From Gammaproteobacteria bacterium (GTDB taxonomy: Bacteria; Pseudomonadota; Gammaproteobacteria; GCF-002020875), in NCBI GenBank assembly GCA_018648825.1, contig JABGQL010000083.1:1-33972 (forward strand): DNA of 33,972 nucleotides. Reading direction: 5' to 3'. Position numbers and translations under genes: made by a program. The notes below the pieces were generated by a model. That model saw nothing but the letters and a program-made list of their open reading frames with translations, was not told where the DNA came from and did not search any database. Shown piece by piece: positions 4,502 through 20,894 of this stretch; the first letter of the stretch is position 1; the number at the start of each line of letters is the position of its first letter.

Positions 4502-4577
4502 TCTGGTTGTATCCTTGAAGTTTCAACCGTTTTCAATAAAGAGCCGCGCATTATACGGATCTGTGGAGGGGCGTGCA

Positions 4578-5429
4578 ATGATTAAGATGATAAAAGTTAT
4601 TTTACTGGGGGTTTTCTGCTGGAGTTGGGTTTTACCCCTCTATGCGCAGGCTGCTTGGGCTGATCCCCTGCTGGCCAAAGTCTATAAAGAGGAGCTGGAT
4701 CTGTCGCAGTGGTGGGTGAGTGAGAAGCTGGATGGGGTGCGTGCGATCTGGGATGGGCAGCAGCTACGCTTTCGTAGTGGGCGAGTGATACAGGCACCAG
4801 CATGGTATACCCAAGATTTTCCAGCGCAGCCGATGGATGGGGAGTTGTGGATGGGGCGAGGCACCTTTGAGCAGACCTCGGCGGCGGTGCGGCGTAAACA
4901 GCCGCAAGATGAGCCGTGGCGCAGGATTCATTATCGACTGTTTGAACTGCCTGCTGCAAAAGGGACCTTTACCCAGCGGGTTGAACAGATGCAGAGCCTT
5001 ACCCATCAGCTACAAATTTCGTGGTTGCAGCCCATTCCACAGCAACGGGTTAGCAATAGAGAGGCTCTATTCCGATGGTTGGAGCGTGTGGTTGAGGAGG
5101 GAGGGGAAGGGCTGATGCTGCATCGCGCAGACTCTCTCTATCATGGGGGCAGAAGCGGTGACCTGCTCAAATTGAAAGCATGGCAGGATGCAGAGGCAAC
5201 GGTGGTAGAGATCATGCCGGGTCAAGGCAAGTACCGTGGGATGATGGGGGCGTTACGGGTAGAGGATGCGCAGGGGCGGCAGTTTCGTATTGGCAGTGGC
5301 TTCAGTGATCAAGAGAGGCAAAATCCTCCCGCGCTGGGCAGTCTGATCACCTATAAATATACCGGTACAACAGGGAGGGGGCTGCCGCGATTCGCATCAT
5401 TTTTGCGGTTGCGCCAAGGGCCAGAGTAG
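4578..5429 (+). CDS. ATP-dependent DNA ligase, LigE-like, with N-terminal signal peptide
   Basis: ATG at 4578 preceded by GGAGGGG. N-terminus MIKMIKVILLGVFCWSWVLPLYAQAAWA looks like a Sec signal peptide. Adenylation motif EKLDGVRAIW (KxDG), then MDGELWMGRG, EGGEGLMLHRADSLY, LLKLKAWQDAEATVVE. The upstream in-frame extension from 4515 is probably not translated. Confidence 0.92.
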   Translation: MIKMIKVILLGVFCWSWVLPLYAQAAWADPLLAKVYKEELDLSQWWVSEKLDGVRAIWDGQQLRFRSGRVIQAPAWYTQDFPAQPMDGELWMGRGTFEQTSAAVRRKQPQDEPWRRIHYRLFELPAAKGTFTQRVEQMQSLTHQLQISWLQPIPQQRVSNREALFRWLERVVEEGGEGLMLHRADSLYHGGRSGDLLKLKAWQDAEATVVEIMPGQGKYRGMMGALRVEDAQGRQFRIGSGFSDQERQNPPALGSLITYKYTGTTGRGLPRFASFLRLRQGPE

Positions 5430-6638
5430 TTACCCGTTCTCTTCTGGGTTTTGCAGTCTGCTCAAGGCTTGGCAGAGGGAAGTGTAACCGATTCGTTCTT
5501 GTTCTAGCCTCAGTTGGGGGGCAAGCTCCTGTTTAAGTAATAACTGGTAGAGAGCCTGTTCCTCCTCGGTCAGTAGAGGCAGAGTGCGTTGAGTCGGTGT
5601 CTGCTCCTCGCCCCAGAAGGCGCGGTGGTCGAGCAGTGTCTGCCTCTCCATCAGTATGGAGTGGGTCTGTGGTAGATAGTGGCGAACCTGTTCCAGCATG
5701 GCAAAACCGTGGGTATCAATATCGCCCCAGTAGGTGATTGAGCGTTGCTTGAGCCACTCCACTTGTTGCAGCAGTTGCAGCCCATAACCGAGCCCAAAAA
5801 TGACCAGACTTTTGGGGTATGGAGGAAAGGCCAGCCCATTGATCTCATTCTCGGTGATGAAGACATGCTCCACAGCAACCCGAAGCTCGGCAAACTGCTC
5901 AACCGGTATGCTGATGTCGGTGAGTCCTGCGATGGCTAAGGTTGGATCAAGGATACGGAAGCGGATCAGTGTGGTTTTAGGGGTAAAGCCATAGCGCTGC
6001 TCAAATGCCCGAACTCCACGTGCATCGGTGTCAACCTGCTCTGCGGGCAGTACAATATCCAACAGTTCGCTCAGTAGCGCACGGTGCTGCTCAATAAACT
6101 TGGTATCGACCCCAGCCAGATCAACCTGTCGTAGATAGCAGTGTGGACGGGGGTGAGCCTGAATCCACGCCACCACCTTGAGCAGGCGTGGCCACTCTGT
6201 CTCAAACTGGATCAGCTTGTGAGGATAGCGGATAACCCACTCCCGCAGCTCTGGGAACTGTACCAGCAGTTCACTGGAGAGGGTATGAAAACGGGCGGCC
6301 TCACGCTGTTTGCCAATAGTGCTGAGTAGATCCTGCTCCCGCTCAAACCAGACCGCAACCGGGATCTCATTGCGTCCGATCTGACGGTGATTGATGCTCT
6401 GCCACTGGATGCGGTATCCCACCCGCTGATCCCCCGCCTCCTGCTGCTGTAGCTGCTGGATCCACTGTTGTGCAGCCTCAAACTGCTCCCCCAGATCGCG
6501 ACTGTTGGGGCGCTTGAGCTGCAAGTGCAGGGGGAACAGCGCCTCGGCTGTGATCTGCGCAGCGAGAAAATCTCCACGCTTCCAGCGCTTAAGCAGCTGA
6601 CTGCGGATGGTGGTTGGGGTGGACCATGTGTTATTCAT
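5430..6638 (-). CDS. jetD: Wadjet defence protein JetD (DUF3322 + DUF2220 TOPRIM-like nuclease)
   Basis: Likely start MNNTWSTPTTIRSQLLKRWKRGDFLAAQ at 6638. C-terminal TOPRIM-like core FITENEINGLAFPPYPKSLVIFGLGYGLQLLQQVEWLKQRSITYWGDIDTHGFAMLEQVRHYLPQTHSILM is typical of JetD. In the same operon as jetA, jetB and jetC. Confidence 0.92.
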   Translation of the reverse strand: MNNTWSTPTTIRSQLLKRWKRGDFLAAQITAEALFPLHLQLKRPNSRDLGEQFEAAQQWIQQLQQQEAGDQRVGYRIQWQSINHRQIGRNEIPVAVWFEREQDLLSTIGKQREAARFHTLSSELLVQFPELREWVIRYPHKLIQFETEWPRLLKVVAWIQAHPRPHCYLRQVDLAGVDTKFIEQHRALLSELLDIVLPAEQVDTDARGVRAFEQRYGFTPKTTLIRFRILDPTLAIAGLTDISIPVEQFAELRVAVEHVFITENEINGLAFPPYPKSLVIFGLGYGLQLLQQVEWLKQRSITYWGDIDTHGFAMLEQVRHYLPQTHSILMERQTLLDHRAFWGEEQTPTQRTLPLLTEEEQALYQLLLKQELAPQLRLEQERIGYTSLCQALSRLQNPEENG

Positions 6639-7704
6639 GATGGTACATCTTTCGACTGAATAGATGAGGGCGGTCCAGATAGTACTGTAGTCTTGGTTTG
6701 TTGTTGTAGCGATAGGTTGCTTGCAGCATAGGGAGGTAATATCGCCCATATTGCTGTTGGTAGAGTCTGTTCAGATAGCGAAAAAATTTTTCCCCATTTT
6801 GACCGTTGCTCCTGAATCTGAATGCGCTGACCTCGTCCAGATCCATATCAAAATAATCCTCTGGGGTACGAGAGGGGCTGCCCCCGACAGTCGGTTGGTA
6901 CTCCTGTACAAATGAGATCACGCCTAGGGATGCCATCCTTTTGAGAATGGCGAAGTCCTCGGAGAGGCGCGTGTTGAAGCCGTACATGATGACGACAGTG
7001 ACCTGGTTATGACCAAAGCCCTTGATGTACTCCCTTTTCTTCTCAAAAAGATCAGCTGTTTTTCTGTTGTTGCAGCTGAAGTAGATCATCCTGCGGGTAA
7101 ACCGAGAGTTCATTGAGTAAACTTGTTTCAACAGGGGGTAGTTGTCATCATTGAGGTACTGTATATCCAGTGTCTGGCTGAAGTTGATCCGGTACTCCTG
7201 CTGGATCATCTGTTCCAACAGGCTGTTTGCATTGGGAGATACGAGCAGGTTATTGTCCAGTAGCATCACATTTTTCTGCCCTTCGGGCACAAAGTCATCA
7301 AAGGTTGCAGCATTGGGGTTGAGCGCTCCCTCTTTGGGGGGGACTACGCAGAAGTGGCAGCGTTTGTTGCAGCCTCGGGTGAGGAAGCCAAGTGCATAAT
7401 GGGTGTGGTTGTAGAGGGCATAATCGGGGAAGCAGCATTCAACATCATCCGCCAAGGTGGTTTGTAGATCAATGCCAGAGCCACCGATGGTGATCTGATC
7501 TCCATAAAGCTGTTGCAGTTGTTGAATACGTTTCTGTGACTTTTTTGTGTGGAATACTACGCTGGCGAAATATTGGTCGGCCTCAACTGCTTGCAGGTTT
7601 CGCTGAAGGGATACCTCATCCCCTTGTGATTTAAAGTGGCTGCTGAGCTTCATCAAGGCAAAATTGGGTATTTTGCTGTCGATATCATAGAGTGCGATTC
7701 GCAT
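6631..7704 (-). CDS. Radical SAM protein, embedded in the Wadjet operon
   Basis: 357 aa with the canonical cluster CNKRCHFC (CxxxCxxC) in GFLTRGCNKRCHFCVVPPKEG. The N-terminus (MRIALYDIDSKIPNFALMKLSSHFKSQGDEVSL) resembles the B12-binding-like Rossmann domain of B12-type radical SAM enzymes. The stop overlaps the jetD start by 8 nt. Confidence 0.9.
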   Translation of the reverse strand: MRIALYDIDSKIPNFALMKLSSHFKSQGDEVSLQRNLQAVEADQYFASVVFHTKKSQKRIQQLQQLYGDQITIGGSGIDLQTTLADDVECCFPDYALYNHTHYALGFLTRGCNKRCHFCVVPPKEGALNPNAATFDDFVPEGQKNVMLLDNNLLVSPNANSLLEQMIQQEYRINFSQTLDIQYLNDDNYPLLKQVYSMNSRFTRRMIYFSCNNRKTADLFEKKREYIKGFGHNQVTVVIMYGFNTRLSEDFAILKRMASLGVISFVQEYQPTVGGSPSRTPEDYFDMDLDEVSAFRFRSNGQNGEKFFRYLNRLYQQQYGRYYLPMLQATYRYNNKPRLQYYLDRPHLFSRKMYHHE

Positions 7705-7739
7705 GGTGTGGGGGAGTGGTAAGGTTAAGCGGAGTATCT

Positions 7740-10700
7740 TTATGTGGGCGGTGCTTGGTTGCCATGAATCAGCTCAACCAGATCGTCGACTGAGATAGGT
7801 GTAGCATGGTCACTCCCCTCCAGTAGGCTGTTGGCGAGATCCCGTTTCTGTTGGTGGAGTTGAATAATCTTCTCCTCAATGCTGTTCTGCACCACCATAC
7901 GGTAGATAGTTACCGGGCGGGTCTGTCCCATGCGGTGGGCGCGGTCAGAGGCCTGATCCTCTACTGCCGGATTCCACCAAGGGTCCATGTGGATCACATA
8001 GTCAGCAGCGGTCAGGTTGAGTCCGGCCCCCCCCGCCTTGAGACTGATCAGAAATAGCTCCCCCTCCCCCTGTTGAAAGGCATCGACAGCGATCTTTCTC
8101 TGTTTTGCCGGGGTGGAGCCATCCAAGTACTGATAGTGGATACCTTGGCTATCTAGTTGTTCACGAATTAGCGAGAGGTGGCCGACAAACTGGCTGAAGA
8201 CCAGCGCACGGTGGTTGTTTTCGCGCAGCTCGTTGAGAATCTCCATAAAGGCCCGCAGCTTTGCGCTGCTCAGCGGGCTATCTTTGAGTACCAGCCTAGG
8301 GTGACAAGCGGCCTGGCGCAGGCGGGTGATCTCGGTCAGGATCTTGATTCGCAGCTGTCCAGGGTGCTCTTGTGGCTCCGCAATGCGTTCGATGGATTGA
8401 CGGCGCAGCGCCTCATAGAAGGCGGCCTCTTCCGGTGCCATCTCGATACTGTGGATGATCTCTGTACGGGGCGGCAACTCGGTGAGTACATCCCGCTTCA
8501 GCCGGCGTAGCATAAAGGGCTGGATGATCGATTTGAGATGCTGCCGAGCACTCTCGTTATTCTGCTCCTGAATCGGGATGGCGAAGCGCTGGTTGAACTG
8601 CTTCTCTGTCCCCAACAGCCCCGGATTGATAAACTGAAATAGGTTCCAGAGTTCACCTAGGTGGTTCTCTATCGGGGTGCCGGTGGTGATGATGCGCATT
8701 TCCCCCTGTAGTGACATCATCGCCTTGGAGCGCTTGGTGCGGCTGTTCTTGAAGGCCTGAGCCTCATCGGCAATGATGGTCTGCCACTTGATCTGCTTGA
8801 GCCGCTCAATCTCACTTTGCAACAGTCCGTAGCTACAGATGATGAGAGAGTGAGGACCGGCATGGTCGAGCATCTGCTGACGCTTGCCACCACCAAAGAG
8901 TTGCGGATTGATTGTCGGCGCAAAGCGTTGGCTCTCATCCACCCAGTTGTTACAGACCGAGGTGGGGGCAATGACCAAGGTGGGGCCATCTGCGCAACGT
9001 TGCAGGATCAGAGCCAGCGCCTGTACCGTCTTGCCTAGTCCCATATCATCAGCCAAGCAGCCTCCAGCGCCCCAGTGGGCGAGACGGGAGAGCCACTCAA
9101 AGCCATCCAGCTGGTAGCTTCGTAGAGAGGCATCGAGGGTGACGGGAAGGGCAGGTTGCAGGGTGTTGGCCTCCTCGATTTTGTTGATCTGCTTGAGCCA
9201 CCCGCGCCCTTTTTTCACCGCCATCTCCTGAGTGGACTCCTCGATAGCGGCGCTGGCCAGTGGATGGATGCGGTTGCCATGGCTGAGTGTACTGATCCGA
9301 TCCAGCTGTCTTCTCAACTGTTGACTCAGGTTGAGGATACGCCCATCGTCGAGTTGTAGAAATCGTCCTGGACGTTGCTGTAGCAGGGTGAGGAGCTTCT
9401 TCATCTCGATCACCTCCCCCTCCTCCAGCTGTAGTGTCCCATCAAGGGTGAACCACTCCTGTTTTTTACTGAATGATAGGCTCATCTGCTTGCTGTCACA
9501 CTCACGTAGCAGGGTGATTTGCTTCCCCTCGGGCCATGCAACCACCATCGGCTCCTTCATCTGCTGCAGGGTAGAGAGCAGCTCCAGAGCATCTTCTGGG
9601 TCATCCAAGATCCACTGCCAGGGGATATCTGAGTCGGGTAGTTTCAGCTCTTTAATAATTTGGTTGGCTGCTTCGACCTCCCCCTGCAGGTTACGTTGAC
9701 AGCTCTCAGCGTTGCCATCAATCTCGATATGAATGCTGGCGTGTTCGCTGCCTGGGGAAAAGTAAGGCCCCTTCTCCCCTATCTTTTCACCAAATGGATA
9801 ACAGTAGATTGAGAGTTGAAACCCGCCACTGCCGCCTGCGATTGGGGAGAGGTGAAGGTGGGGAGTGGTATCTCCCTCCACCTCTGTGCTGGAGGTGGTT
9901 ACATCGGAGTGGATGGAGAGTATCGGGGCCATGCTGGAGAGGGTATTGGCGACCTCTTGTCGCGCCTCTTCAGGGGTGGTGAGGCCCTGTTGGGAGAGTA
10001 TTTTGGCAATGGCCAACTGTCCATCATTGAAGTGGGTGATGATGAAGCGGTTTGGTGGTTGGAAATAGCCACGGAAGGAGGAGAGGTAATCGCTGAATGC
10101 CACTGCTGGGTAGGGGTGGATGGCGAAGTGAATCTGCTGCTGTTGTGGGATCTCCTTCACCTCCAGATGAGCATTGCGCTCCTCAATGGTGAGCGGTCCG
10201 TGTAGGGTGTGACCATCATCAAAAAACAGGGCTGGGTGGCCGATGGCCGCACGAATCACATTCTCGCCGCAGAGAGAGTAGCGGGTCTCTGGATAGCCGC
10301 TATAGTTGCGGTGATGTTCTACCTCCATGTTGTTACAGATCTCTATATCCTGCATGGTGAGGTAGTTAAAGTTAGAGCGCTGTTCATGGAGTCGTTTCAG
10401 TGCCACCTTGCGTCCTTTGCTCCACCCTTTTTTATTGCGTCTCTGTTCTTTGGGGCTGAACTCGATAGCTTGGTCTTCACCGTGAATCAGCCAGACCATG
10501 CGAGTCTCTGTCGTATTGGGTGCTTTATTGCTCTCTGTTGCGGGGCCTGCGGTGAAGATTTTTGATACCGATTGCAGCAGATTGAGCTGCTGTTTCCATG
10601 GACTCTTCTTTCGGTAGAGGGTGGGGAGGATAGCGGCAGGATCGGCTTCAAAAACATTTGGAGTTATCCTTGTCCGTTCGACCCCCAGAGCCAGCAGCAG

Positions 10701-11576
10701 TGTGCTGCACTCATTTCTGTACCAGTCGTAGCTAAGGCCACACTGTTGGTTATGGCGTAACAGACGGCGGATGAGCCGCTCTTCAATCGGCTGCTCCAGC
10801 CAATAGAGGGCAAGCGCTTGAAACAGGTCGTGCCAGTGATCTGTCGTGAGTGGTTCATGGTGAAGCCAGATGGACTGCTGCAGGGTTATCTTTTGTAGGG
10901 TTATCTTACTGAAATCAGAGAGAATTTTTAGGATTGGGAGTAGAGGTGAGGCAGCAGATAGCCCCTTTTGAAGCTGTTGCGACTCCTCCAGCAGTGCGGT
11001 CTCATTCTGGATGCCACCCTGTGCAATTCGTGCCAGTAGAGAAAAAATGATCGGCAGTCCAAAAATGTAAGGTTGACCTGGGGCTGACTTTCGGCTCTCT
11101 TCAAATTTCTGTAGTGCCTTTTCAGCATCGCCCTGTAAAAAATAGAAGGCAGCGACAAATGTAGCCCCATAGGCGAAATGATCCTGATCAACGGTGTCGA
11201 GGATCCACTGATTACGCTGCAACCAAAGTTCTGATACTGGGTGGCTGAGTGTGAGACAGGTGAGTATGATTTCAGTTTTCAGTATCTCCTGCTCCTCTTT
11301 GCAGGGGGGGCCGTGTTTGGACCTAGATGCTTCATCGATAAAGTCTCTTTTAATCGCTAACAGAACACTCTTTCTCCATGGAAGGTAGAAAGAGATGATC
11401 TCAGGGTCTAGTTTAAGGGCGGCTTGAGGAAGAGTGGTTGTAATTCTACGTAGGTCATCGGCGGCGTAGGGGCTGTTACTGATGGATGTATCAACATTGT
11501 AGCGTTGTAGTAGTCTCTCAATCTCCTGCTGTTGCGCAATATCGACCCCACCTGCCTGTTCTCTCTGCTCATTCAT
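7740..11576 (-). CDS. SNF2-family DEAD/DEAH-box helicase with long N-terminal extension
   Basis: 1278 aa. C-terminal SNF2 motor: [18 protein letters not shown] (motif I), [11 protein letters not shown] (DEAQ, motif II), [75 protein letters not shown] (motifs V-VI). The first ~800 aa are not recognised. Confidence 0.95.
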   Translation of the reverse strand: [1278 protein letters not shown]

Positions 11577-13417
11577 CAGTGAACCCCTTTCGGGCTGATT
11601 CGATATCCTAAAGTGCGTACCCCTTTGAGGAAGGAGCGGTAGGATTTTTCAGCGACAACCACCGTTTTTTTGTTGCTAAAGAGACAGAATTTTGAGGTCT
11701 CTTTGGCGCTTGTCAGAAGTTGCACAAGATGCTCGCTGGCACATTCAACCATGCGTGCAGCTTCCCCTTCATGGAGAGACTCGGTGCGCATTTTTAGGCT
11801 GTCGAAAAAATCCTCCATTTCGTCACTGAGTTTGCTGTCAGACTCCTTCTCTAGCAAAGCCTTTACCTCATTCAGACTGTTCCCCTGCTCAATGGCGCTG
11901 AGCCCTTGCTGCATATCGAAGAGGAGTGGCTGCCCAATCTCGGTCGGTTTTTGTGTGGTAAACGGTTCCAGCAGGAGCTGTTCATGCGCTTCTGGTTTGC
12001 GCAACAGGGTGAAGCCTGTGCCCTCATCCAGAGGATGGAGTAGGGCGGGGAGGGCGTGTTCGGCTGGTTGATACTCTGTACAAATACCCAAACAGTAGGC
12101 TCCCAGCGGGTTGATGCGAAACCATCCAAGCCCATCATACCGGCTCAGATAGCTGTAATCATCGCCTCCCCAAGTATCGTAGTAGTCACTGCGCACATCG
12201 TGTGGGGCGCTATAGATTAAATCAACCATACCCAGCGTGGAGAGTATCTCAAACAGGTAGGCAAGAATATAACGCCCCTCCAGTACCTTGAAGTTATGGT
12301 TAATGTTGCCGTAGTTGCTGTCGACTAGATAGAGCACGTACGGGTTTTCGCTTACTAAAAAGAAGGGGGTGCTGCTGCGAACAAAGCGCATCCACTCATC
12401 AACCTGTACCCACTCATCCGTTGGGGTGGAGAGCAGAATCTCTTCCAGCTGCAGCCGCCGCAGGCTGGGAGGGGTCATCTGCGGGCCGACAAACCGCCCA
12501 CGGCCCCGTTTTGTCTGTCCCTTGATACGATTCACCCGCAGAAATTCATCCAGTTTTCCCTGTTTTCGCCAGCCACTGTAGATTGTTTTCAGTGCATCGG
12601 CATAGGGTGTTTGATGTTGTAGTACTTTTTTCCCTTGAGTGCTGAGAGTCAGTTTTTTGCCAACCCGTCGAGTAAGCCCTCCGCTCTGAATCAATAACGG
12701 CCAGATAAAGCTGCGGATGGGTGAAAGGGTGTCATTGGTATAGTCCTTCTTTTCGTCGGCCTCTGAGAAAAAGTCACCTTCATAGAGTGTTGCATGAACC
12801 GCTTTTATGCAGGCTGCAGTGGGCTTCAAGGTCTTTTCGCTGATGCTGATTTTGCCTTGATCGACCAGCCGTAACAGGGAGTAGATCTCTTGGCGAGCGC
12901 AGATCTCCATATCACGTTGAGATAGTGGCAGGCCATTGTGGCGATCATCATCCACTGTGGTTAAAAACTTAGCGAGTATGCTGCTCTCAGTGGTTTTGAT
13001 GTAGTCTGTCTTTGGCTTCTCAAGCTGTTCACATAAGCGCTCACAGAGCTCTTGTGGGATGATGTCGTTAAAGTAGAATATGCTGATGACACTCGCTATT
13101 TTTTTAACGGGTTTCCTATACCCATAGTGACGTTTCTCTTGAGTATAGCCTTGAGGGAGTGAGCCAAAACGGGCCACCAACTGGGACTCTACTATCCGCC
13201 CATGCTGGTTGTGGACAACCTCGGCGATCATGGTGCGCTCTTTATCCGTGAGTTGCAGAACAAAGGGGTCAAGCCGTCTGGAGAGCAGGAATTTGTAGAG
13301 AAATTGAACGCGCTCATCTTTTCGAGTGGGACACTCTTTTGGGGTGACTCCGAGCTGGTAAATGCGCGTTTTTAGCACGTCGCTGTTTAGGTTATCCAGC
13401 GCTTCAAATAGTTTCAT
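11576..13417 (-). CDS. Protein of unknown function between jetC and the SNF2 helicase; possibly a winged-helix / XPB N-terminal-like helicase-associated protein
   Basis: Likely start MKLFEALDNLNSDVLKTRIYQLGVTPKE at 13417, preceded by AAGGAGCAAC. The ORF track gives an unlikely longer N-terminus to 13516. The stop TGA overlaps the SNF2 start as TGATG. The C-terminal pattern (KFCLFSNKKTVVVAEKSYRSFLKGVRTLGYRISPKG) loosely resembles helicase-associated XPB N-terminal-like domains. No confident family. Confidence 0.85.
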   Translation of the reverse strand: MKLFEALDNLNSDVLKTRIYQLGVTPKECPTRKDERVQFLYKFLLSRRLDPFVLQLTDKERTMIAEVVHNQHGRIVESQLVARFGSLPQGYTQEKRHYGYRKPVKKIASVISIFYFNDIIPQELCERLCEQLEKPKTDYIKTTESSILAKFLTTVDDDRHNGLPLSQRDMEICARQEIYSLLRLVDQGKISISEKTLKPTAACIKAVHATLYEGDFFSEADEKKDYTNDTLSPIRSFIWPLLIQSGGLTRRVGKKLTLSTQGKKVLQHQTPYADALKTIYSGWRKQGKLDEFLRVNRIKGQTKRGRGRFVGPQMTPPSLRRLQLEEILLSTPTDEWVQVDEWMRFVRSSTPFFLVSENPYVLYLVDSNYGNINHNFKVLEGRYILAYLFEILSTLGMVDLIYSAPHDVRSDYYDTWGGDDYSYLSRYDGLGWFRINPLGAYCLGICTEYQPAEHALPALLHPLDEGTGFTLLRKPEAHEQLLLEPFTTQKPTEIGQPLLFDMQQGLSAIEQGNSLNEVKALLEKESDSKLSDEMEDFFDSLKMRTESLHEGEAARMVECASEHLVQLLTSAKETSKFCLFSNKKTVVVAEKSYRSFLKGVRTLGYRISPKGVH

Positions 13418-16400
13418 GGTGTTGCTCCTTCTCTGTACGATACTCCTCAATGGTGAGGTTGCGCAGCTTCGACTCTCTTCCCTCCTCATTATGGACAAAG
13501 CCAACACAGGCGACATAGGGTTCGATGATGTGGATCTTCTGTAGCGGGGTGACGATCAGCAGCTGCAGGTTGAGCTGTTTGAACAGCTCCAGACCAAAAC
13601 GGGCAGAGTCGTCTGAGCCGCGCCCGAAGGCCTCATCGATTACCACAAAGCGGAAGCTACGGGAGCGGGTTGCCCCCCACTCCAGCCCAAATTGATAGGC
13701 GAGGCTGGCGGCCAGCACGGTGTAGGCAAGCTTCTCCTTCTGTCCGCCCGATTTTCCACCACTGTCGGTGTAGTGTTCATGTTCGCGATCATCCTCACGC
13801 CAGCGCTCGGAGGCGGAGAAGAGGTAGCTGTTGCGCACATCGGTCACTTTGCGGGTCCAGCGTCGATCCAGTTCACTGCTTCCCTCACGTCCGCGAAAGC
13901 GCTGGATGATCTTCTCTACCTGAGCAAACTTGGCCTCGGAGTACTGCTCCTCCTCTGATCCGGTCAATCCACCCTCAGTACAGCTGCGTAGATCCTGCAT
14001 GAACTCGCGAATCTCAGGGTCACCATTGTTCTGTCGTTCCAGTACGATGTAGCGCCCCGGATTGTAGTCGATCTGGTTGAGTGACTGATTGATGCGGTCG
14101 ATGCGTTCGCGGATAGTCTGCTGCTCACGCCCCAGCTGTGACTGAAAATTGGCTACCTCACGGATGGTGTTCTCATTCAGTAGCTGTTTGAAGCGGGCCT
14201 CAAAGGCGGGGAGGTCATCCTCTTGTAGTGCTTGCAACAAGGCACGGTACCCCTCGGCTGACTCAATCCCCACATCCAGCTCCTCGGTCTCCAGTGGATA
14301 GTCGATGTGGTACTGCTGCATTGCGGCGATCACCTTCTGGAACAGCTTCTGGATCTCTTTGTCGAGCTTGTCGATCTTCGCCTGTAGCCAGCCGCGCAGC
14401 TCTTTCTCGCGTGTGGCGCAGGACTCTACGGTGAGGGTGTGCTCCTCCAGCCCTTCGCTACGCGCCACTTCCAGCTGGCTGAACTGCGTCTTACGCTGTT
14501 GTGGGTCTAGACTCTGAACAATCGTATCACTCTCTGTCAACAGTTCATGGGACTGCTCCAGCTTTAGCTCATGGGTGGCTACGGCCCGTTTTTCCCGGTC
14601 GAGCTTCTCCTCGCGCTGCTGCAGACGTTGCTCCAGCTCTTCAAGCTGTTGGTTGATGGTCTGTAGCAGGTCCGATGAGGCCTGCAGGGATTGGTGCTCC
14701 TCCTCCAGCAGGCTGATCTCTATCGCAAGGGGCTGCCAGTGGATCTCGTTAAAGTCTCGATACTCTCCAATCTGCGCCAACTGTTGCAGCTGTTGGTGCC
14801 CCTGCTTTTGTTCTGCCTGAATGGTACTGATCTCACCGGAGAGGCGCTGCATCTGCTGCTCTAGGCTCTCTACCAGACGTTCCAGTGCCTCAATCTTCTG
14901 TTGGTTACTCCAGCCCAGCACATAGCGGCGGCGATCATCAATGCGGTGGCGGTCATCTTTCTCATGGCGCACCCCACCCGCCTTGGTCTGCCCCCGCAGT
15001 GTTATCGCACGCTGTTCACGTCGGAACTGGTCGAGGGTGTTGCAGCAGGCGTAGTCGAAGCGTTTCGCCAGCTCCTGCTCTAGCCAGGGATAGAAGCTGG
15101 AGTCTGGTTTGATGCTCAGTTTGCGCACCAGAGAGTTGGCATGCAGATCAATTGCCGCACTGCGTTGTTGCGGGCGGATACGGTAGTAGACCAGCCGTCC
15201 CTTGAGTCGGGTCTGCTCGACCCACTCGGTTACCGCCGCATAGTGTGTCTCGGGTACCAGTAACGAGAGGGCAAAGTTGTGTAGCAGTCGTTCCACCGCA
15301 CCCTCCCAACGCTGCTCTGATTGGTGTACCTGAATCAGCTCACCTGCGAAGGGCATTTCGCTCTCCTCCAGTCCCAGTTGCTCGCAGAGCTGATCGCGGA
15401 TCTGGATCTGCTGGCTGCTGATGTTACTGCTGCGCTGGCGCAGTGAGTCGATCTCCTGCTGGTTCTGCTGGTGCTGCTGGTGTAGTCCGCGCAGCTCAAC
15501 CCCCAGCTCGGTCTGCCGATTTTGCAGGCGATCATCCTCCCCCTCTGCGTGGCTTCGTAGCTCTGCCAAGCGGTTTTGGTTATCGATAAAGTGGTCGCTC
15601 TGTTCAACGGCGGGGAGATCGAGCAGGGTGGCCAGATCAGCATAGCGCTCGGCCCGCTGCTGTCGTCGACCTCTGTCTTGGCCCTTCTCTTCGATCTGGT
15701 GGCGAATGCGCTCTAGCCGGTCCCCCCCATTTTGCGCAATCGCTTGTTTGATGCGGTCGCGCTCTCCTTGCTGTTCACGCTGCCGGTGCTGCTGTTGTTG
15801 CAGACGCGCCTCGGTGCGTTGTAGCTCTTCAGTAAGCCGTTTGATGCGGTGCTCCAGCAGCCTCCCTTTGTGGTGGGCGAAGAAGGGTGTGAGGGCCTCG
15901 CGATTGGCGCGCCAATCTGCCACCTGCTTGGTGCAAAGTTGATGTTCATCATAGTGGGCCATCAGCGGGGTGAGTTGCCCAATCTGCAGTTTTGCCTTGA
16001 GGATCGCCTCGTGTGCGCGGCTGAGATCATCAAAGTGGTGAATCAGTGCGTCAATACGAGGCTGTACGTTGAACGCCTCCAGCATGTGTTCGCGCACAAA
16101 GTCGGTCAGGTTGCCAACCGACTTCATGGAGACGGTCTGGTGGAACAGCTCTAGCGCCTGTTCATTGTGGATGCCAAAGAGGCGGCGAAATTGTGCTGCA
16201 TAGGGGGGGAAGCTATCAAACAGCTCCAGATTACGTTTGCTGCGCAGCCGTTTTTTTAGCTGCTGAATCTCCTTGCCAAAGGCGGAGAAGTCATCGGCGA
16301 TGGTGAGTGGAGACTGTGCCACCACAAAGAAGCGGGCGGGTTGCCCCTTTAGGTCCTTGCTCCAGAACACCTGTGCCAGAGTCACATCCTGATCGTAGCC

Positions 16401-16823
16401 GCTGTTGTGAAAGGTAGCGAGAATCACCGAGTAGCTGTTGTGGTCACGTAGAGGCACCGGTTTGGAGACCCCGCCAATCTCACTGCGCTCTGATTTGTAG
16501 TAGCCCTGTACGTAGGATCGCAGGGTGCGCTCTTTGCTACTGGCCCCAGCGGCCTTGTTGTAGGCGACCCGTTGGGCGGGGACCAGCAGGGTGGTGATGG
16601 CATCTACCAGTGTCGATTTTCCAGAACCGATATCCCCGGTCAGCAGGGTATTGTTGCCGTCAGCGTGGAGGTTCCAGACTCGGTTATGGAAGGTGCCCCA
16701 GTTATAGACCTCTAACCGTTGCAGGCGAAATCCGGCCAGTGTCTCCTCAATGCCAAAGTCAAATTGCTCTAAAGTCGCGTCTAGAGTTGCATCTAGAGCG
16801 GCGGTTTGTGCGGGGTTACCCAT
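13404..16823 (-). CDS. jetC: Wadjet SMC-like ATPase JetC
   Basis: Likely start MGNPAQTAALDATLDATLEQFDFG at 16823 with AGGAGG upstream. Walker A LLTGDIGSGKSTLVDAITTLLVP, very long coiled coil, C-terminal SGGQKEKLAYTVLAASLAYQFGLEW...FRFVVIDEAFGRGSDDSARFGLELFKQLNLQLLIVTPLQKIHIIEPYV. Typical of JetC/MksF-like SMCs. Confidence 0.96.
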   Translation of the reverse strand: MGNPAQTAALDATLDATLEQFDFGIEETLAGFRLQRLEVYNWGTFHNRVWNLHADGNNTLLTGDIGSGKSTLVDAITTLLVPAQRVAYNKAAGASSKERTLRSYVQGYYKSERSEIGGVSKPVPLRDHNSYSVILATFHNSGYDQDVTLAQVFWSKDLKGQPARFFVVAQSPLTIADDFSAFGKEIQQLKKRLRSKRNLELFDSFPPYAAQFRRLFGIHNEQALELFHQTVSMKSVGNLTDFVREHMLEAFNVQPRIDALIHHFDDLSRAHEAILKAKLQIGQLTPLMAHYDEHQLCTKQVADWRANREALTPFFAHHKGRLLEHRIKRLTEELQRTEARLQQQQHRQREQQGERDRIKQAIAQNGGDRLERIRHQIEEKGQDRGRRQQRAERYADLATLLDLPAVEQSDHFIDNQNRLAELRSHAEGEDDRLQNRQTELGVELRGLHQQHQQNQQEIDSLRQRSSNISSQQIQIRDQLCEQLGLEESEMPFAGELIQVHQSEQRWEGAVERLLHNFALSLLVPETHYAAVTEWVEQTRLKGRLVYYRIRPQQRSAAIDLHANSLVRKLSIKPDSSFYPWLEQELAKRFDYACCNTLDQFRREQRAITLRGQTKAGGVRHEKDDRHRIDDRRRYVLGWSNQQKIEALERLVESLEQQMQRLSGEISTIQAEQKQGHQQLQQLAQIGEYRDFNEIHWQPLAIEISLLEEEHQSLQASSDLLQTINQQLEELEQRLQQREEKLDREKRAVATHELKLEQSHELLTESDTIVQSLDPQQRKTQFSQLEVARSEGLEEHTLTVESCATREKELRGWLQAKIDKLDKEIQKLFQKVIAAMQQYHIDYPLETEELDVGIESAEGYRALLQALQEDDLPAFEARFKQLLNENTIREVANFQSQLGREQQTIRERIDRINQSLNQIDYNPGRYIVLERQNNGDPEIREFMQDLRSCTEGGLTGSEEEQYSEAKFAQVEKIIQRFRGREGSSELDRRWTRKVTDVRNSYLFSASERWREDDREHEHYTDSGGKSGGQKEKLAYTVLAASLAYQFGLEWGATRSRSFRFVVIDEAFGRGSDDSARFGLELFKQLNLQLLIVTPLQKIHIIEPYVACVGFVHNEEGRESKLRNLTIEEYRTEKEQHHETI

Positions 16824-17481
16824 TGGCAGCGGCCTCCTGTTGCAGGTGTGTCTGGTACCCCTCCAGCTGCTGGTCAAAGTCACGCAACCACTGCGCATCG
16901 ACAAAGGCCTTTAGAATGCGGCGTACCTCCAGCATCTCCTCTTGCCCCTTGCGTTGCCCTGCTGTCTTTAGGCGGCGCAGAAAGCCCATCTCGATCACCT
17001 TGTTGATCTGGGTGTCGATCTGTTTGATGGTCTTGGTCTCATTGCTGCTTTCGGGGAGGAAGATCTGTAGCAGTTCAACGATCTCATCGCGGGAGAGGAT
17101 CAGGCGCTGTTCAGCGCCGCTGGCATCAAACTCGGCGAGCCGTTTACGCAGCAGCGCAAGCAGTAGACTGAGGGTGAAGGGGAGCTGGCGACGGCTGATC
17201 AGGCGGGGCAGTTCGCTCTCATCCGGGTCTGTAGGGCGGGTGCGTAACCAGCTATACCCCTCTGCCTCATCGATGATCAACTCCAGCCCAATCTGGGCCA
17301 TATAGTCGCGCACTCTGCCTTGTAGTGTGAGCAGTTGTTGCCAAAGAGCGGGATCACCCTCCAGATAGACGATGCCCTTGAGTAGTGCAATGGTGACGCG
17401 AGAGAAGGCGTTCTGCTGGGGATCCTCTGAGGCTGTGGTGTCGCTGGTAGTGGGTTCTTGCATGGTTGTGGAGATCTCCAT
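16816..17481 (-). CDS. jetB: Wadjet protein JetB (DUF4194, MukE/kleisin-partner-like)
   Basis: Likely start MEISTTMQEPTTSDTTASEDPQQNAFSRVTIALLKGIVYLEGDPALWQQLL, with IDEAEGYSWLRTRP and LPRLISRRQLPFTLSLLLALLRKRLAEFDASG, all DUF4194-like. Lies between jetA and jetC. Confidence 0.93.
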   Translation of the reverse strand: MEISTTMQEPTTSDTTASEDPQQNAFSRVTIALLKGIVYLEGDPALWQQLLTLQGRVRDYMAQIGLELIIDEAEGYSWLRTRPTDPDESELPRLISRRQLPFTLSLLLALLRKRLAEFDASGAEQRLILSRDEIVELLQIFLPESSNETKTIKQIDTQINKVIEMGFLRRLKTAGQRKGQEEMLEVRRILKAFVDAQWLRDFDQQLEGYQTHLQQEAAANG

Positions 17482-17483
17482 GG

Positions 17484-18926
17484 TTAACGGCTGTAGATCA
17501 CTCGAGGTAGCTCGACTTGACGTATGTGGTCTGCCTCGTCCTGCCACTGCAGGGTGTCGAGGTGGGTCTCATCAAACAGGTGTTTGGGGTTGTCACTGGC
17601 GATAGAGAGCCAGCATACCAGCTCACTCAGCCCCTGTTCCAGCGGGTCCTGCTGTAGTAGTGCCTGCAGGGTGATCTGTGGCTGGGTTTGGAGAGCCTTG
17701 CGAAGGCGTGAGCGTAGCTGTTCTGAATCGATATAGCTCTGCTCAAATAGTGCATCTGTGTTGAGAACCGACTCCTCCCCAGCGATCACCGCCCCCTCCA
17801 GCTGTGGCTTTAATGGTGGGGCGTAGAGGGGGCGCTCCATCGGCAGACTGAGGTTGGGAGCGCTCTCATCGATCTCTGTAAGGTTGCCCTTGGGCGGCTG
17901 GTTGCGTAGCGCAATGGCCTTGCCCTCGATCTGCTTCAGCAGCACCATGATGCGCCGATTCTCCAGATAGGTCTGATCATCGAGATAACGCCTCAGCTGT
18001 TGGGAGAGGCGGGCCACGGTGCGCTGAGTCTGTTCGCCCGCCTCCAGCCAGTCGTAGTGGATGCGTTGTAGACGGCGATCGGGGCGCAGCTGCTGAATCG
18101 GCTCCAGCTGCAACACCTCGTCGAGTAGTGCGCTCAGCTCCTCTTGCCGTGTTGGAGACATCAAAAAGTCCCAGAAGGCACGAAAGCTCTTGCCCTGATC
18201 GGAGTCTGCAATCAGATCGCGCTCCCCAAAGATCTGCTCTAACAGCGCCCCCTTGTTGCCCTCCCACAGGGTGATACGTTCACGTACCTGCTGATCAAGT
18301 GCACGAAAATTCTGTTCCACCTCACGAAAGTCAGAGAGCAGTTCACGCGCGGTGGTGGTCAACTGCTGGAAACGGTCTCGCAGTGCAGTCTCATCCAGTA
18401 GCTCCAGCTCACCCGCCTGAATGCGTTCGATCTCGGCCTCAATCACCTGTTTGCGGCTCTCCAGCTCTGCGATACGGCGTGCGGGGTCGGTTTCACTCCC
18501 CTCAATCATCTGTTTCAGTAACTGAAATACCGTCATCAGGCGCGATTCAGTGCCGACGAACTGGCGCTGTGTGAGGCTCTCTAGCCAGTTGATCGCCTTC
18601 TCGGTAGCGGGGGTCAGGTCATAATGTGGCTCATCGGAGTCGACCGGGTAAAACTTGCGCAGCCACCCCTTGTCGCTCTCGGCCCAGTCGCTGAGGTACT
18701 GCTCTGCCCGTTTGGGAAAGCGCTGCTCACCCTCCGTTTCACGCAGCTGAAACAGGGTGTCTTCCAATTTTGAGGCAAGATCGGCCTGAGTGATGACCCG
18801 CAGATTGGGTTCAACAAAGGCTTGTTGCAGAAAGCTGGCAATCAGTGGGGCATGGTCGGCTTGTAGCAGTCGCCATGCGGGATGGTTCTTTCGTAGGGAG
18901 GAGAGGGTGAGGTAGTCGAGCGCCAT
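17484..18926 (-). CDS. jetA: Wadjet protein JetA (DUF3375, kleisin/MukF-like)
   Basis: 480 aa, MALDYLTLSSLRKNHPAWRLLQADHAPLIASFLQQAFVEPN...RGLTPATEKAINWLESLTQRQFVGTESRLMTVFQLLKQMIEGSETDPARRIAELESRK, DUF3375-like. First gene of the operon. Confidence 0.93.
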   Translation of the reverse strand: MALDYLTLSSLRKNHPAWRLLQADHAPLIASFLQQAFVEPNLRVITQADLASKLEDTLFQLRETEGEQRFPKRAEQYLSDWAESDKGWLRKFYPVDSDEPHYDLTPATEKAINWLESLTQRQFVGTESRLMTVFQLLKQMIEGSETDPARRIAELESRKQVIEAEIERIQAGELELLDETALRDRFQQLTTTARELLSDFREVEQNFRALDQQVRERITLWEGNKGALLEQIFGERDLIADSDQGKSFRAFWDFLMSPTRQEELSALLDEVLQLEPIQQLRPDRRLQRIHYDWLEAGEQTQRTVARLSQQLRRYLDDQTYLENRRIMVLLKQIEGKAIALRNQPPKGNLTEIDESAPNLSLPMERPLYAPPLKPQLEGAVIAGEESVLNTDALFEQSYIDSEQLRSRLRKALQTQPQITLQALLQQDPLEQGLSELVCWLSIASDNPKHLFDETHLDTLQWQDEADHIRQVELPRVIYSR

Positions 18927-18944
18927 TTGGGTGGTGATTAGACC

Positions 18945-18969
18945 ACAGTGAAGTTAGGGTTTACAGTGA
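18945..18969. promoter_or_regulatory. Paired direct repeat ACAGTGA upstream of jetA (possible operator)
   Basis: ACAGTGA at 18945-18951 and again at 18963-18969 (18-bp periodicity), just upstream of the jetA start at 18926. Confidence 0.25.
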
Positions 18970-19155
18970 CTGTGCTGAGGGGGCTAGCCTTCTGTACTTG
19001 GTTCAGAGTGATCCTCCAGAAAAGACTGAGAGTTTTGGGCAAAGTCAGCCAACTGTCGCTGCTGGATAGGGCGGCTACCTCCCTTGGTTAATAGAATCTA
19101 CATGCTGAAGCAATATTGTATTGCGATATTATCGAGTTATGATATTATTAAAGGC

Positions 19156-19437
19156 ATGATTAAACAGTTTGCCGATAAACCTACTGCCGCAATCTTTTCT
19201 GGCTTGATCCTCAGAAAGATGGATAGAAGACTACAGGAGAAGGCGAGACTGAAGCTTCAGCAGATTGATAATGCTACTCAATTGGATGATCTCAGAAATC
19301 CGCCAAGCAACCGATTAGAGCGAAAATCAGGCAATATGAAGCACCTGCACTGTCTGAGAGTGAATAAACAGTGGCGAATCTGTTTTGAGTGGGTAGATGG
19401 GCATGCATACAAAGTGCAATTGACGGATTACCATTAG
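19156..19437 (+). CDS. higB: HigB/RelE-family toxin of a type II toxin-antitoxin system
   Basis: Likely start MIKQFADKPTAAIFSGLILRKMDRRLQEKARLKLQQIDNATQLDDLRNPPSNRLERKSGNMKHLHCLRVNKQWRICFEWVDGHAYKVQLTDYH, a classic HigB pattern, followed at once by a HigA antitoxin. Confidence 0.93.
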   Translation: MIKQFADKPTAAIFSGLILRKMDRRLQEKARLKLQQIDNATQLDDLRNPPSNRLERKSGNMKHLHCLRVNKQWRICFEWVDGHAYKVQLTDYH

Positions 19438-19447
19438 GAGAGTGATT

Positions 19448-19780
19448 ATGATTAAGCGTGAAAATTTAGCCAATACTGACTTCTCTGATATTGTGACTGG
19501 GGAGAAGGTATTGCCGATTCATCCGGGTATTCACCTAAAGGATTATATAGAAGGTGCTGGAGTCACCCAGTACCGAGTAGCCAAGGAGATCCATGTTTCG
19601 GCTATCCGCATCAGTGAAATTGTGAATGGTAAGCGCTCAATCAGTGCTGACACGGCTATCCGGTTGGGGCGCTTTTTTGATACTTCGGCACAGTTTTGGA
19701 TGAATTTACAGTCTCGGTATGACTTGGATGTTATGGTTGGTGAGAAGGATTATAATGATATAACCCCTGTTGCTGCATAG
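19448..19780 (+). CDS. higA: HigA-family addiction-module antitoxin (HTH)
   Basis: LPIHPGIHLKDYIEGAGVTQYRVAKEIHVSAIRISEIVNGKRSISADTAIRLGRFFDTSAQFWMNLQSRYDLDV, typical HigA XRE helix-turn-helix. Lies 10 nt after higB. Confidence 0.95.
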   Translation: MIKRENLANTDFSDIVTGEKVLPIHPGIHLKDYIEGAGVTQYRVAKEIHVSAIRISEIVNGKRSISADTAIRLGRFFDTSAQFWMNLQSRYDLDVMVGEKDYNDITPVAA

Positions 19781-19880
19781 GGAGTGGAAGCTGCTATGCG
19801 TGGTGTTTGCTCGCATGTTATTTGGGTAAAAAAGTGAATTATTGTTCGACTCAAATTCGTGATTGTGTACCCTATCCCCC

Positions 19881-20894
19881 ATGATTACCTTGGGAATTGA
19901 AAGTTCTTGTGATGAGACGGGCATCGCACTCTATGAAACCGGAGTGGGTTTGCGTGGGCACGTACTCTATAGCCAAGCAGAGATGCACGCACAATATGGC
20001 GGTGTGGTACCTGAGTTAGCCTCGCGCGACCATATCCAGCGAGTGATTCCATTGATTGATCAGCTGCTGCAAGAGAGCGGTATCAATAGAGAGCAGGTGG
20101 GCGGTATCGCCTACACCGCAGGCCCCGGTTTGATGGGTGCGTTGATGGTAGGGGCCTGTGTAGGGCGCAGCTTGGCCTATGCGTGGGGAGTGCCTGCTGT
20201 TGCGGTGCACCATATGGAGGGGCATCTGTTGGCTCCCTTGCTGGAGCCGGAAGTCCCAGAGTTTCCCTTTGTGGCACTACTGGTCTCTGGTGGTCATACG
20301 CTGCTGGTGCAGGTGGATGGCGTGGGGCAGTATCAACCCTTGGGGGAGTCAATCGATGATGCGGCTGGTGAGGCCTTTGATAAAACCGCCAAGCTGTTAG
20401 GGCTGGGGTATCCCGGTGGTCCTGCGCTCTCTAAGCTGGCAGAGCAGGGTGACCCAGACCGATTTACCTTTCCGCGCCCGATGGTTGATCGTCCCGGTCT
20501 CGACTTCAGCTTTAGTGGGTTAAAAACCTTTGCGCGTAATACGCTGGAGAAGCACTTTGAAGAGGAGACCATTGCTGCAGATGTCTCTCGTGCCTTTGAG
20601 GATGCGGTTGCCGATACCTTGGCGATTAAGTGTCGACGCGCATTACGTCAGTGTGAATTGAAGCGGCTGGTGGTAGCGGGTGGTGTCAGTGCCAACCGAC
20701 GTATTCGTAGTCGCTTGAGCGAGATTGCTGAGGGGGAGGGGGGTATGGCCTACTTCCCTCGGCCTGAGTTCTGTACCGACAACGGGGCGATGATCGCCTT
20801 TGCGGGAGCCTTGCGGCTGGAGGCGGGTGAGCAGAGCGGGTTGGGGGTTGAGACTCGCCCCCGTTGGCCGCTGAGTGAGCTGGCAGCCGTTTAA
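19881..20894 (+). CDS. tsaD: tRNA N6-adenosine threonylcarbamoyltransferase TsaD
   Basis: [72 protein letters not shown]. Start ATG at 19881 rather than 19863. Confidence 0.98.

Follow-up and report, generated by a model that had tools for sequence, protein, structure and literature searches.

Type I Wadjet (JetABCD, also described as EptABCD or MksBEFG) is the closest described relative of the locus reported here. Its JetABC complex extrudes circular DNA and JetD cuts at the end of extrusion, and obstacles lead either to stalling and cutting or to bypass through the hinge (PMC12647877, PMC10586767). The locus lies on contig JABGQL010000083.1 of a Gammaproteobacteria bacterium (assembly GCA_018648825.1), of which the whole analysed stretch of 33,972 nucleotides is called the window in the following, and it carries three additional genes between jetC and jetD, encoding a protein here named X, a SNF2-family ATPase and a radical-SAM enzyme (rSAM). 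A compact jetABCD cluster in which jetC adjoins jetD is the usual type I layout and is not known as a requirement for activity. The second system of relevance is TFIIH, in which p52 anchors and directly stimulates the XPB translocase (PMC7708078, PMC9557730). The explanation favoured here, at somewhat less than an even chance, is a type I Wadjet variant that may have recruited a p52-regulated double-stranded DNA translocase module consisting of X and SNF2.

Seven tightly packed genes fill positions 5430-18926 of the window on the minus strand in the order jetA-jetB-jetC-X-SNF2-rSAM-jetD. The gene jetA (17484-18926) encodes a kleisin of 480 amino acids with DUF3375 (PF11855, E = 5e-160; PADLOC JetA1, 724 bits), jetB (16816-17481) a KITE subunit of 221 amino acids with DUF4194 (PF13835, E = 4e-41; MksE, 1e-16), jetC (13404-16823) an SMC ATPase of 1139 amino acids (JetC1, 1,601 bits), and jetD (5430-6638) a TOPRIM nuclease of 402 amino acids after correction of its start (PF11795, E = 7e-58; PF09983 JetD_C, E = 3e-56). 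The Walker A, Walker B and SGGQ motifs of JetC and the ENE and GDID motifs of JetD are intact, as are all seven reading frames and every catalytic motif checked. The locus encodes a complete type I Wadjet, with kleisin, KITE subunit, SMC protein and TOPRIM nuclease together, and its restriction of circular plasmids by extrusion and cleavage is putative.

With corrected starts, jetA and jetB are separated by 2 nucleotides, jetB and jetC overlap by 8, jetC and X by 14, and X and SNF2 by 1, followed by a gap of 35 nucleotides to rSAM, which overlaps jetD by 8. The start of jetB was moved from a GTG at 17547, using the PADLOC model alignment together with the junction sequence. Since the jetC/X and rSAM/jetD junctions are both overlaps, the block of three genes is joined to its jet neighbours at both outer ends. 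It keeps jetC and jetD 6.8 kb apart, and the adjacent jetC/jetD arrangement usual for type I Wadjet is not present. A single transcript for the seven genes is proposed because of their spacing and shared strand; promoter and terminator scans gave sites no more numerous than in shuffled sequence. A preliminary description of this DNA had already drawn the seven same-strand genes as one operon, recognised JetA/B/C/D-type products from motifs and placed the three extra genes inside the operon and not beside it; open reading frames and spacing, Pfam and PADLOC matches, and the overlapping outer junctions bear out these points. Several of its longest-frame starts lay too far upstream, and what it listed as an unknown frame of 646 codons is X, with 613 amino acids and a predicted fold now seen to be like that of p52/Tfb2. 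It knew of no published seven-gene arrangement of this kind, and none was found in the literature searched here either.

The protein X (11576-13417, minus strand) matched no Pfam family above cut-off, and its profile (A1) found no match among PDB sequences; its kinship to p52 is thus invisible to sequence searches alone. An AlphaFold2 model was obtained from a 38-member alignment with a predicted local distance difference test score (pLDDT) of 88.6. When this model was searched against PDB structures with Foldseek, all 16 matches at E<=1e-3 were p52/Tfb2 of TFIIH (best E = 5e-8); the next, weaker matches were to the clutch domain of XPB, which is homologous. Identity to p52/Tfb2 is about 10% and the global TM-score is 0.28/0.36, a low value because the domain arrangement differs or is uncertain. 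In a genome-wide scan, an XPB helicase was encoded in the fetched flank of 21 of 58 X loci, often directly adjacent and across phyla. By its predicted fold, X is a bacterial relative of TFIIH p52/Tfb2, with the gene neighbourhood as independent support. In a tree of the X family, proteins from Chromatiales metagenome-assembled genomes form the sister group of the window's X (100/100), and an XPB-linked X of Mariprofundus stands next to them. Judging by gene neighbourhoods and trees, XPB is the usual genomic partner of X, and SNF2 replaces it in the clade of the window and Chromatiales. X belongs to a widespread and possibly new bacterial p52/Tfb2-like family; no account of a bacterial protein of this kind was found in the literature searched, which is not proof of novelty. 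The X model found nothing in a viral fold library, and no relatives of X were found in viral contigs. Betaproteobacterial members (among L065-L122) occur as orphans close to argS, hflX or a DnaK-related gene. In Desulfogranum and Desulfocapsa (L109, L112), X and a same-subfamily SNF2 gene lie side by side in divergent orientation. An Hsp70 gene follows X in L112, and a DnaK-related gene precedes X in L098.

The SNF2 gene (7740-11576, minus strand) encodes 1278 amino acids (PF00176, E = 3e-68; PF00271, E = 7e-25), with a long N-terminal region at about 1-800 and a motor at about 810-1270, in which the GLGKT, DEAQ and motif VI sequences are intact. The model of the N-terminal region reached a pLDDT of 45, with about 300 residues resembling tetratricopeptide repeats at moderate confidence, and a fold search with it was uninformative. 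This SNF2 subfamily occurs in 13 of 274 genomes of the class, including that of the window, and also occurs alone; the window's own genome carries a second, stand-alone member of 1403 amino acids (L173:3205-7416, G000:C110). Chromatiales metagenome-assembled genomes (L066, L067, and L119 with a truncated X) encode X followed by SNF2 in the same order as in the window, with X 48-49% and the SNF2 motor 73-75% identical, and in the SNF2 tree the Chromatiales and window proteins group together (100/100). The flanks of the Chromatiales pair differ from the window in having neither jet genes nor rSAM.

The radical-SAM enzyme (6631-7704, minus strand; 357 amino acids) contains CNKRCHFC (CxxxCxxC) at position 112 and gives a weak PF04055 match below cut-off. 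In 673 genome searches, with some genomes shared, no relative above about 35% identity was found; distant kin of about 30% identity lie mostly on mobile elements, namely Bacteroides phages and plasmids, and viral contigs contained no relatives.

Other Wadjet loci provide hints that X and SNF2 genes have been linked to this system more than once. In seven Cupriavidus loci (L006, L011, L084, L086, L088, L108 and L120, the last cut off within jetA), a gene of the X family stands beside a JetABCD-type Wadjet as in the window, but it is found about 375 nucleotides upstream of jetA and is not accompanied by SNF2 or rSAM. Cupriavidus X branches separately from the window's X, and X thus joined Wadjet twice independently. 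The Wadjet-associated X gene is disrupted in two plasmids of Cupriavidus necator (L108 and L120). In the congener G748 (L206:3893-14137), the order is SNF2-jetA-jetB-jetC-Y-jetD between recJ and carAB, with a SNF2 protein of 930 amino acids whose gene ends 8 nucleotides before jetA and a protein Y of 179 amino acids that has no Pfam match. In another gammaproteobacterium, G029 (L061:2650-11299), jetA-jetB-jetC is followed by a gene for a SNF2 protein of 1013 amino acids that overlaps the jetC stop by 4 nucleotides (ATGA), with an hslU-like gene and a transporter as neighbours. This genome, 97% complete, yielded no jetD relative, and a Wadjet in which the nuclease has been replaced by a SNF2 motor is possible from this gene content. 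Both loci resemble the window in having a SNF2 gene inside the Wadjet operon, and they differ in the SNF2 subfamily (motors 32-40% identical), in its position, and in the absence of X and rSAM. The G748 and G029 islands are flanked by the housekeeping genes recJ, carAB and hslU, with no other defence genes flanking. A further genome, G083, has a SNF2 gene upstream of its Wadjet.

SNF2 and XPB translocate along double-stranded DNA and push or remodel the proteins bound to it. In the favoured explanation, X would be a p52/Tfb2-like regulator whose family is usually paired with XPB and which is here paired with a SNF2 ATPase, and a single transcript would carry both together with the genes of the SMC core. 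JetABC would extrude circular DNA and JetD would cleave once extrusion completes, while the X-SNF2 motor would translocate on the same DNA, displacing or remodelling bound proteins. Extrusion and cleavage could thereby finish on protein-loaded invading circles; as a guess, rSAM might modify a component or the substrate. Physical interaction, obstacle clearance and an effect on plasmid defence are presumed in this scheme. It is supported by the single operon, by the overlapping junctions and by the arrival of the genes as one island, as well as by the predicted p52-like fold of X and the position of X beside XPB across phyla, and the repeated SNF2-Wadjet and X-Wadjet linkages add hints. It also accords with the stalling of Wadjet at obstacles and its ability to bypass them (PMC12647877).

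A serious possibility is that the three genes are co-transcribed passengers. A canonical jetABCD operon would then have taken up an independent X-SNF2 pair, with a function in DNA repair or a defence role of its own, together with an unrelated rSAM gene, and would retain them only as harmless, expressed genes; between this and the favoured variant, the balance is about even. Several observations weigh for the passengers and against a recruited module. JetA relatives occur in 35 of 369 genomes of the class, the window's included, and X, SNF2 or rSAM was found between jetC and jetD in none of the 21 fetched class loci showing both genes, nor in G009, G273, G748 or four plasmid loci. At least 27 other type I Wadjets show both jetC and jetD, none of them with the block, and the exact X-SNF2-rSAM arrangement is found in one lineage only. 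X-SNF2 is a unit existing outside Wadjet, because the Chromatiales genomes, whose pair is sister to that of the window, carry it without jet genes. GC content at third codon positions is 0.57 in X and 0.59 in rSAM compared with 0.68-0.70 in jetABC, which fits a later insertion. A distant type I Wadjet in G249 has a tightly spaced ketopantoate-reductase-like gene between jetC and jetD (L138:8729-9553), apparently a metabolic passenger in the same slot, and a related-family Wadjet in G273 has small open reading frames and a Uma2-containing gene between jetB and jetC (L045:4557-7434). With the Y gene of G748, these cases indicate that Wadjet operons accept cargo, so overlap alone is no proof of function. 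The enzyme rSAM, moreover, has no role in the obstacle-clearing model. Enrichment of SNF2 genes near jets speaks for a recruited module, but is suggestive only: jet loci hold 3 such genes in 0.53 Mb, and the comparison loci, 1.25 Mb in all, hold 1 apart from those linked to X (Poisson P about 0.009). Three loci are involved, the background comes from a heterogeneous set of fetched loci, and some jet loci entered the count more than once. Against mere passengers stand the facts that SNF2 in Wadjet operons and X beside Wadjet have each recurred independently, and that all seven frames and their motifs are intact. The preliminary description had taken the block for a functional accessory and proposed to count its recurrence between jetC and jetD in other genomes. 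By that count, chance insertion is favoured, since the block was found here only; the accessory role gains from X beside jetABCD in Cupriavidus and from SNF2 in the G748 and G029 operons, and it loses from the uniqueness of the block, from X-SNF2 pairs without jets and from an rSAM that has no close relative.

SNF2 ATPases are evictors of DNA-bound proteins. By analogy with Mot1 or RapA, an X-regulated SNF2 might evict JetABC from the host chromosome, recycling the complex and limiting self-damage instead of aiding attack, and the SNF2 gene does share its operon with the nuclease. Most type I Wadjets, however, do without such a factor, and this role in self-protection is considered improbable. 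An origin of the insertion in misassembly, or in a chimeric joining of DNA from two organisms, was rejected as extremely improbable, because, although the source is a draft genome in 168 contigs with 88.5% completeness, the reading frames overlap cleanly at both block borders and a second assembly, DUYW01000093.1, has the same jetC-to-jetD order and differs over 9,848 bp by 8 single nucleotide mismatches, without gaps.

This second sequence, from a Saanich Inlet metagenome-assembled genome (contig C93 of G748), corresponds to window positions 15258-5411 at 99.92% identity, covers the jetC-to-jetD half of the operon and terminates within the sequence that joins jetD to ligE in the window. Housekeeping DNA of G748 is only 70-78% identical to that of the window (22-30% different), so G748 is another species, and it has its own Wadjet on contig C40 (JetA 71% identical) as well as an empty ligE-tsaD site. 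For these reasons, C93 is probably mis-binned in G748; independent acquisition of the block by G748 was rejected, and C93 shows contiguity only.

The island occupies positions 5430-19860 between ligE (4515-5429) and tsaD (19863-20894). As tsaD follows directly after ligE in the congeners G102, G219 and G748, with no jet genes at the site, the operon and an adjoining HigBA pair represent an insertion of about 14.4 kb. The HigB-like toxin and its helix-turn-helix antitoxin (19084-19780, plus strand; PF05015, E = 4e-16; PF01381) diverge from the operon and have a GC content of 0.40-0.44. On the ligE side, the window contains rpoD, dnaG, yqeY, rpsU and the ligE-like gene itself; beyond the opposite end of the island lie tsaD, plsY, folB and folK.

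If the favoured explanation is true, an SMC nuclease with its own remodelling motor would make it directly testable how Wadjet copes with DNA covered by protein and how it leaves its own chromosome unharmed. A more general proposal, that Wadjet has repeatedly been upgraded with double-stranded DNA translocases, here with a TFIIH-like, p52-driven SNF2 joined to an SMC loop extruder and in G029 with SNF2 in exchange for JetD, is rather unlikely. The bacterial p52-like family, possibly new, is the most interesting by-product of the locus analysis, and if XPB has a p52-like partner widely among bacteria, this would be relevant to the origin of the XPB-p52 pair of TFIIH and to the role of bacterial XPB.

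Compared with known systems, the locus agrees with type I Wadjet in its four subunits, their canonical order on one strand, the best scores for type I models and the intact motifs, and it departs from it in the three genes that separate jetC from jetD. The SNF2 motor is homologous to those of DpdE, ZorD and DrmD from the Dpd, Zorya and DISARM systems, but the partner genes of these systems are absent from the window and the NCBIfam equivalog cut-offs are unmet; identification as DpdE or ZorD was rejected for the missing partners. With regard to p52/Tfb2 and XPB/Ssl2 of TFIIH, the locus differs in that SNF2 stands in the place of XPB and no p8/TTDA gene was seen, and it is alike in that the X model matches p52/Tfb2 and genes of the X family often adjoin XPB.

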